A stretch of 64,000 bases of DNA from Enterococcus hulanensis (GTDB lineage Bacteria > Bacillota > Bacilli > Lactobacillales > Enterococcaceae). The notes under the pieces are model-generated. The model searched no databases. It was not told the DNA's origin and worked only from the letters and a program-made list of their open reading frames with translations. The stretch is taken from assembly GCF_005405485.1 (NCBI RefSeq), contig NZ_BJED01000008.1, forward strand, positions 1 through 64,000, read 5' to 3'. Both the position numbers and the translations under genes were made by a program. Below are positions 1 through 1,226 of the stretch, one piece after another (positions within the stretch are counted from its first letter, which is position 1; every line of letters starts with the position of its first letter).

Positions 1-10
1 TTTAGAAAAA

Positions 11-77
11 TAAAAACTGTGAAGCCACCACCTACCTAGGATTAGCGGTTACTTACACAGTTAATATTACACTCTCG
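11..77 (-). repeat. Hairpin repeat, copy 1 (terminator-like on the minus strand)
   Basis: This is the first of two related units; the second is at 186-253. By hand alignment they match at 56 of 67 positions with one 1-nt gap. The right part is best kept, with GGTTACTTACACAGT at 47-61 followed by TTAATATTAC and then TCTCG. On the minus strand the unit reads as ACTGTG...CACAGT followed by a T-rich run, the layout of an intrinsic terminator. Here the left arm has decayed (AAGCCACC instead of TAAGTAACC on the plus strand), so only the outer 6 bp and part of the middle can pair. Confidence 0.6.
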
Positions 78-185
78 AAATATTGTCTATCTTTTTACCT
101 AGCAAAAAAACAGACTTTTTCAACCTCTAGATTTATTTTCTCTCTAATCGTACTAAAATCACCTCCTAATCTCATTTAAGGGAAA

Positions 186-253
186 GAAAAACTGTGTAAG
201 TAACCACCTGTTTAGGTTTATCGGTTACTTACACAGTTAATACTACGTTCTCG
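186..253 (-). repeat. Hairpin repeat, copy 2; probable licT-operon terminator
   Basis: Perfect 15-bp arms ACTGTGTAAGTAACC (191-205) and GGTTACTTACACAGT (223-237) flank a 17-nt loop. Read on the minus strand, downstream of licT, the hairpin is followed by TTTTTCTTT, so it can end the bgl transcript. The conserved block extends past the hairpin to TCTCG at 249-253, matching copy 1. A terminator alone would not need that extension. It could be a duplicated small RNA gene or an intergenic repeat family, and this window alone cannot decide. Confidence 0.65.
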
Positions 254-350: not shown

Positions 351-1226
351 TTAATCTATATCCTTATTATCAATTTTGGATTTATCAATCACTTCACTGT
401 TCATCAAGCGGTTGATATGGACCGTCAAATAGGCGACTTCTTCTTTAGTTATGGCCGTTTTATGCAACAACTCTACATAATCCTTAACATTAAAAGCGAT
501 TGTTAGAGCTTTCGGATATAAGGTCGCAATTTGCTCAAAGAAGGCTCGATCTTCCTCAACAATCATTTTTCCTTCAAAAAATCGTTCAACAAAAAATTTT
601 AAGTGCGTTAGGAATCTTTGATAATGAATATCACTTTTATCAAATTCTATTCCTAGTTGGTATCTCACAATATCAGAGATACCAGATACCAGTTTAGCGT
701 ATTCCATCCCTTTTCGATTAGAATAATCACTACTTTGAGCATTGATAATATGAAAGGCAATGTTTGCAGCTTCCTCTTCTGGTAGAACAACACCCAACTT
801 CTTTTTTAGAATCTTCAAAGCAAAAACTCCCACAGCAAACTCTTTAGGATAGTAGTTTTTGATTTCCCAAAAGACACGATTCATAATTTGAACATCATTT
901 TTTTGACGCTCTATGGCAAAATTCAAATGATCACTTAGTGTAAAATATACACTGGAATTCAGCGTGCTGCCCAATTCTTCCTCTGCCTTTTCAACAATAC
1001 TTTGAGTAATTTCAAGAAATACTGCTGGAATAGATTCCAACAGTTTTATATACTCCTGTATTTGAGAATTCTCAACAGGAATGAATACCTTATTTATCTC
1101 ATCTTTTTCTACATTCTGACCTGTCTTTCTTCCGTACCCGATTCCTTTTCCAAAAAAGACATATTCTTGATGTTCTTCATCTTCAGCCAAAATAGTATTC
1201 GCGTTCAAAACTTTCTTAATTCGCAT
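351..1226 (-). CDS. licT: BglG/LicT-family transcription antiterminator
   Basis: This is a 291-aa RNA-binding antiterminator for beta-glucoside genes. The N-terminal co-antiterminator domain is about residues 1-56, starting MRIKKVLNAN and including the FFGKGIGYGRK stretch. Two PTS regulation domains follow, about 65-170 and 175-285. The usual phosphorylatable histidines are in place at about H100 and H159 (PRD1) and H208 and H270 (PRD2). In this family the sugar-specific EII phosphorylates PRD1 to switch the protein off, and HPr acts on PRD2. It is the last gene of the bgl operon, 11 bp after the GH1 gene, and a matching RAT site lies ahead of bglP, so it should control its own operon. Length is normal for the family. 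Confidence 0.93.
   Translation of the reverse strand: MRIKKVLNANTILAEDEEHQEYVFFGKGIGYGRKTGQNVEKDEINKVFIPVENSQIQEYIKLLESIPAVFLEITQSIVEKAEEELGSTLNSSVYFTLSDHLNFAIERQKNDVQIMNRVFWEIKNYYPKEFAVGVFALKILKKKLGVVLPEEEAANIAFHIINAQSSDYSNRKGMEYAKLVSGISDIVRYQLGIEFDKSDIHYQRFLTHLKFFVERFFEGKMIVEEDRAFFEQIATLYPKALTIAFNVKDYVELLHKTAITKEEVAYLTVHINRLMNSEVIDKSKIDNKDID

Follow-up and report, generated by a model that had tools for sequence, protein, structure and literature searches.

The window analysed here is a 64,000-nt stretch of Enterococcus hulanensis DNA, from a genome of 4.74 Mb in 47 contigs, and it starts at base 1 of contig C8. Near that edge lies a licT-type antiterminator gene with genes for a family 1 glycosidase and a PTS permease upstream, and all of them read toward two similar hairpin units placed between licT and the contig start, called copy 1 (the unit nearer the start) and copy 2 in the following (Table 1). 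A sequence-only reading had described these units, positions 11 to 77 and 186 to 253, as matching at 56 of 67 positions, and the count was reproduced with one 1-nt gap (10 + 46); the ungapped comparison gave 50 identities out of 67. The aligned blocks, 22 to 77 against 198 to 253 (82%) and 1 to 21 against 176 to 196 (81%), are offset by one base. The T-runs 3' of both hairpins on the minus strand were also found as described, as was the perfect stem of copy 2, the arms of which are 100% complementary over 16 nt (15 in the earlier account). The minus-strand folds had energies of -25.8 kcal/mol (z -7.0) for copy 2 and -20.9 kcal/mol (z -4.4) for copy 1, and neither value was reached in 200 shuffles. 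Copy 1 had been thought to have lost half of its left arm, which it has not: its inner arm has the form found in intact elements, and copy 2 is the unit that has diverged.

Table 1. Features at the left edge of the window, with the basis of each assignment.
Feature	Positions	Strand	Basis
IS256-family element left end, tip at 76; remainder off contig start	1..76	-	identical to the copy in contig C23; 47-76 exact match
Copy 1, U-run of the terminator-shaped hairpin	6..16	-	9 T in 10 in locus L004 (same sequence)
Copy 1, inner arm, imperfect inverted copy of the repeat core	15..32	-	relatives, fold
Copy 1, outer arm, left terminal repeat core	47..62	-	sequence comparison, fold
-10-like hexamer of the left tip (element bp 8-13), possible half of a circle-junction promoter	64..69	-	position as in ISCth4 (available text of PMC7780238); putative function
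8-bp target duplication of the window's copy	77..84	.	same 8 bp follow a right end at C7:231854-231865
Relic, diverged left end	117..252	-	79% over 136 bp to element positions 2-136
Relic, remnants of ribosome site and transposase start region, start codon lost	149..167	-	sequence comparison
Copy 2, U-run	183..191	-	terminator-shape scan
Copy 2, inner arm, perfectly complementary	190..205	-	complementarity, fold
Copy 2, outer arm	223..238	-	complementarity, fold
licT-type antiterminator gene, reads toward the relic	351..1226	-	CAT_RBD and PRD domains

On the basis of sequence searches of the genome, positions 1 to 76 are the left end of a multi-copy IS256-family insertion sequence, inside which the contig begins. 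Exact matches to this stretch occur at four other places, namely the ends of C35, C31, and C19 and the interior of C23, and partial or diverged copies occur at three more (99% over 69 bp, 84%, and 81%), so that the unit is scattered through the genome and not confined to this pair. Contig edges that fall in one shared stretch would be expected from a collapsed repeat. In the C23 copy the same left tip is followed by the hairpin and then by a transposase ORF of 423 aa, which matched Pfam Transposase_mut when taken from an inner start (E 1.5e-103) and scored 376 bits with the NCBIfam IS256 model (cut-off 150); the window's own transposase lies off the contig. The right end of the element reads ...GTTGACAAACCC and has seven exact matches in the genome. 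A subterminal TGTAA motif is present as GTGTAAG in the left end, with an imperfect counterpart in the right ends. In the annotations inspected, close relatives (80-90% identity, in 248 Enterococcus plasmid records) appear only as IS256 family transposase or transposase, with no element name.

The 8 bp before the left tip recur after a right end for four of the five intact left ends in the genome, and these duplications pair C8 (the window) with one end of C7, C31 with the start of C7, C35 with C41, and C19 with C27. No matching duplication for the C23 copy was found among the genome's right ends, and the right ends in C6 and C36 had no partner among its intact left ends. Over all loci, the duplication matched at 7 or 8 of 8 bp in 34 of 64 complete copies, and 8 of the 64 were without a flank. 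From the paired duplications it follows that the rest of the insertion sequence and then contig C7 lie to the left of the window; a CpsB/CapC-type gene begins some 400 nt into the C7 side beyond the element. The copy shared by the end of C35 and the start of C41 (L002, L090) is adjacent to, or inside, a gene encoding a GHKL sensor-kinase domain, next to a regulator-like ORF, and has its 8-bp duplication. The right end of the C23 copy adjoins an ORF (L023:1737-1922) without a matching duplication, which suggests recombination between copies; we take that ORF to be IS3-type OrfA-like.

Two proposals of the sequence-only reading thus stand in part. A mobile intergenic repeat was correct insofar as the unit is the end of a multi-copy mobile element, and incorrect insofar as it is not free-standing; a search for a MITE-like structure, with both ends around a short core, found no right end in the window with up to three mismatches allowed. 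A leader of the next gene to the left is also right in a sense, that gene being the element's transposase gene, off the contig.

By its homology, copy 2 derives from the left end of a related element and has decayed. Tip, hairpin, and ribosome site are still recognizable, but the start codon has been lost and the homology comes to an end. Among the loci compared, the nearest to the full-length relic was L034 (80% over 136 bp). The sharing of sequence outside the stem, pointed out earlier, is real: the homology of copy 2 to the element passes the hairpin and continues to the relic's far boundary, and the two units have common flanks because they descend from a common element end. The fresh copy at positions 1 to 76 landed about 32 bp past the relic. 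Other partial or diverged left ends were found in C10, C14, and C6, and at L008:1501-1729 a 57-bp left-end relic directly precedes a fragment of the element's own right end in inverted orientation. The position and direction of the units after licT would also suit a double terminator of the licT operon that arose by duplication and has no relation to mobile DNA, but the four other exact copies, the homology that runs past the hairpin into the transposase start, and the paired target duplication make this explanation barely credible. They refute it as regards the origin of the units; licT may still make use of copy 2.

The hairpin was then compared among related left ends. The best 80 of 161 loci from a scan of genome contigs were kept, searches of relatives added more, and 59 distinct left ends selected from these loci by a motif were reduced to 40 by removal of near-identical ones. 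Judged by record titles, the hosts of the best 80 of the 161 loci include Enterococcus, Listeria, Oceanobacillus and its relatives, Erysipelotrichaceae, and Clostridia-type bacteria. In 32 of the 40 non-redundant left ends the repeat core pairs with a more internal inverted copy of itself, and in 30 of these 32 at least 6 of the 10 bases after the last G/C of the arm are T. The terminal-repeat stem was absent in five of the 40 (L039 at 677, L057, L149, L153, and L189), and only weak stems were present in L165, L167, and L177. The leaders of L132, L137, L160, L164, L166, and L168 contain a second motif resembling the repeat core, GTGTG/GTATG, just before an internal -10-like motif; this second copy is perhaps a self-repression site.

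Covariation was assessed in 33 sequences, the 32 hairpin-bearing left ends plus the relic of the window, with the other 8 of the 40 left out. These rows were chosen for having the hairpin and are mutually related, so the figures support pairing and do not prove it: 92.1% of the cells were paired in comparison to 27.8-46.9% when the partners were slid, changes on both sides were seen in 7 of 16 pairs (2 of 500 shuffles as high), and the covariation score was reached by none of 500 shuffles. The number of further pair types was unremarkable (49 of 500 shuffles as high). A free consensus fold picked 12 of the 16 pairs.

We then asked which molecule carries the pairing. Within the 7-bp outer block, where the partner was placed only by identity to the perfect complement and 38 of the 40 sequences could be used, the deviations comprised 13 T.G and 5 G.T combinations, that is, 18 wobbles in transposase-sense RNA, no wobbles of the antisense type (A.C or C.A), and 13 other mismatches. 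The sense RNA had the better fold in 31 of the 40 left ends and the antisense RNA in 9. Because the wobbles fit only the sense RNA and the sense folds are lower, this strand bias points to the sense transcript over a DNA site. The inner arm might otherwise be a second, inverted DNA site for the transposase, used in self-repression or end assembly, with RNA pairing as its by-product. It does resemble the core of the terminal repeat, the sequence that the transposase must bind, and a co-evolving binding site would likewise change on both sides; the excess of sense-RNA wobbles (18 versus 0), the U-run that follows on one strand, and the lack of such an inverted copy in the right ends inspected by eye render a DNA site unlikely.

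The hairpin is positioned between the left tip and the transposase start, on the sense strand of the transposase, and has the shape of an intrinsic terminator, a stable hairpin directly followed by a U-run. The stems are A/T-rich; that of copy 2, with 6 G-C among 17 pairs, is A/T-rich for a terminator. Neither hairpin was listed by a terminator scan that allows loops of 3-8 bases only, and the loops here are longer. The locus comprises an IS256-family left end and a relic left end, and we consider it likely that the hairpin is an intrinsic terminator that shields the transposase and that may also end the licT operon. Most likely the hairpin stops outside transcripts before the transposase gene: such transcripts would contain both arms, the outer of which is the terminal repeat itself, and would stop at the U-run, and therefore insertion into transcribed DNA would not switch on the transposase.

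A hairpin in this position could also act on the translation or stability of the transposase mRNA by masking the ribosome site in the manner of IS200 or ISPpu9, without any termination. Such leaders exist (available text of PMC12594629 and PMC8450116), and IS256-family members of the ISEf1/ISEfm2 type do have a hairpin at the ribosome site, but in the present element the stem does not reach the ribosome site, from which it is separated by the U-run, and we judge this explanation very unlikely. The suggestion that the units are a pair of small RNA genes was unsupported, in that a consensus scan of positions 1 to 595 showed no promoter-like site (weak evidence) and no Rfam match lies near the hairpins; the one match in the Rfam search was below threshold and inside licT. 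Termination of a transcript from outside or from the junction would yield a short RNA, much as processing does in IS200 (available text of PMC12594629), but given also that the homology follows the boundaries of the element, a small RNA gene in each unit is highly improbable.

As for the licT operon, the relic hairpin was the one terminator-shaped site within 280 nt of the licT stop, at about +112 to +113. Among four licT homologues in relatives (51-90% identity), two had a terminator-shaped site soon after the gene, and the same scan gave a hairpin without a T-run for the other two. In the relic the transposase gene is dead, and use of its hairpin as the terminus of the licT operon, for which it may have been retained, is plausible.

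The tips of the element carry sequences that resemble the two halves of a promoter. Of 35 right ends examined, 27 have TTGACA close to the tip, and where a duplication fixes the tip the motif lies five bases from it; among the other eight, one has TTGACT, two were truncated by the search span, and the motif search missed five. According to the available text of PMC7780238, ISCth4 has a -35-like hexamer at bp 6-11 of its right end and a -10-like hexamer at bp 8-13 of its left end, which would make up a promoter with a joint of 5 or 6 bp between them, and for IS256 circles joints of 5, 6, 7, and 19 bp are cited there. The accessible parts of two further papers list IS256 among the families with junction promoters (PMC9330008) and describe two start sites and antisense RNAs for IS256 itself (PMC10266640). 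By arithmetic, a 5-bp joint gives a spacing of 17 between the half-promoters of the present element.

Joining of the right end (-35) to the left end (-10) in a circular intermediate would thus create a promoter, with a start predicted near base 20, inside the left arm. When the 32 hairpin-bearing leaders were folded from base 20, the mean hairpin energy changed from -20.8 to -9.5 kcal/mol and the base of the stem shifted 1-7 nt back from the U-run. As a start near base 20 drops the outer part of the left arm, a junction transcript would escape the terminator. TACAAT/TAGAAT-like motifs past the U-run in many leaders suggest an internal promoter as well, and a transcript begun at this -10-like motif would be a second one to escape. 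Both promoters, junction and internal, are putative and drawn from sequence resemblances, as is the junction start site, and the half-promoters fit copy-out/paste-in movement through a circle. We tentatively propose, as possible rather than probable, that throughout a Bacillota-wide branch of the IS256 family the terminal repeat senses where a transcript originates: outside RNA would be terminated, junction RNA would read on, and much transposase would be made only when a circle is ready for insertion. The predicted sparing of junction-started RNA by the hairpin is possibly a new point.

The sites of insertion were examined for structure of their own. The 70-nt target segment folded better than segments 110 nt away (Wilcoxon p 0.013, 33 sites), z was at or below -3 at the target center in 8 of the 33, and several empty sites resemble hairpins split by the element. 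In a stricter scan, 5 of 34 sites had a terminator no more than 30 nt away, versus 0-2 of 29-34 at shifted positions, a result superseded by an intergenic-gap control for which 38 sites were reduced to 12 by removal of 17 that fall within a called ORF and 9 that lack a called gene on the flank. Compared with positions sampled at 8-nt steps across those gaps, the sites showed no excess (3 of 12 versus 2.4 expected), and terminators as insertion targets were rejected. Flank genes, called by plain ORF heuristics for this control and for the orientation counts, read toward related elements in 47 cases on the left (11 away, 30 not called, n = 88) and in 46 on the right (8 away, 16 not called, n = 70). 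IS256 is among the families over-represented between convergent genes (available text of PMC9208149).

One of the most closely comparable systems is ISCth4 (IS256 family; transposase structure 6xg8), the transposase of which is homologous to that of the element (E 3.1e-114). The IS200 leader was reportedly the subject of a 1999 study by Beuzon. ISCth4 shares the half-promoter positions and 8-bp duplications of the window element, and in the available text of the ISCth4 report (PMC7780238) the word terminator is absent and hairpin occurs once. In IS200, too, an inverted repeat in the transposase leader lowers expression, although there the ribosome site is hidden and the transposase belongs to a family other than IS256 (available text of PMC12594629). 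Terminators at the 5' side of insertion sequences are already known from IS200 and from the "mobile attenuators", class 1 of which has a terminator upstream of the transposase, as proposed here, described as preventing expression when the insertion sequence lies in a transcribed region (available text of PMC2965389). That text rests the idea on cited Tn10 and IS200 work, proposes reuse by the host as well, and names the families ISBma2, IS3-type, and ISL3; by word count IS256 does not occur in its main text. In searches of open-licence papers, no title or abstract listed described a 5' terminator in this IS256 branch, which is weak evidence of novelty.

Eight other IS256-family elements were compared by eye. 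The ISEf1/ISEfm2 branch is similar to the window element in left tip and transposase family, whereas its hairpin overlaps the ribosome site and has no U-run ending; in L185, L186, L191, and L192 (ISEfm2, ISEf1, and two unnamed Gram-positive elements) the right arm of the hairpin extends into the ribosome site immediately upstream of the transposase start. IS1542, ISXax1, ISAba26, and ISRm5 showed no clear counterpart hairpin. The IS256 family may therefore mute outside transcripts in more than one way.

What the window holds is an ordinary insertion-sequence end and a relic. If the reading of the hairpin as a terminator is true, it would explain how an IS256-type element can reside in transcribed DNA without being switched on, and it would connect terminal repeat, terminator, and circle-junction promoter in a way that can be tested. 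A dead element, moreover, may leave a working terminator to a host operon.
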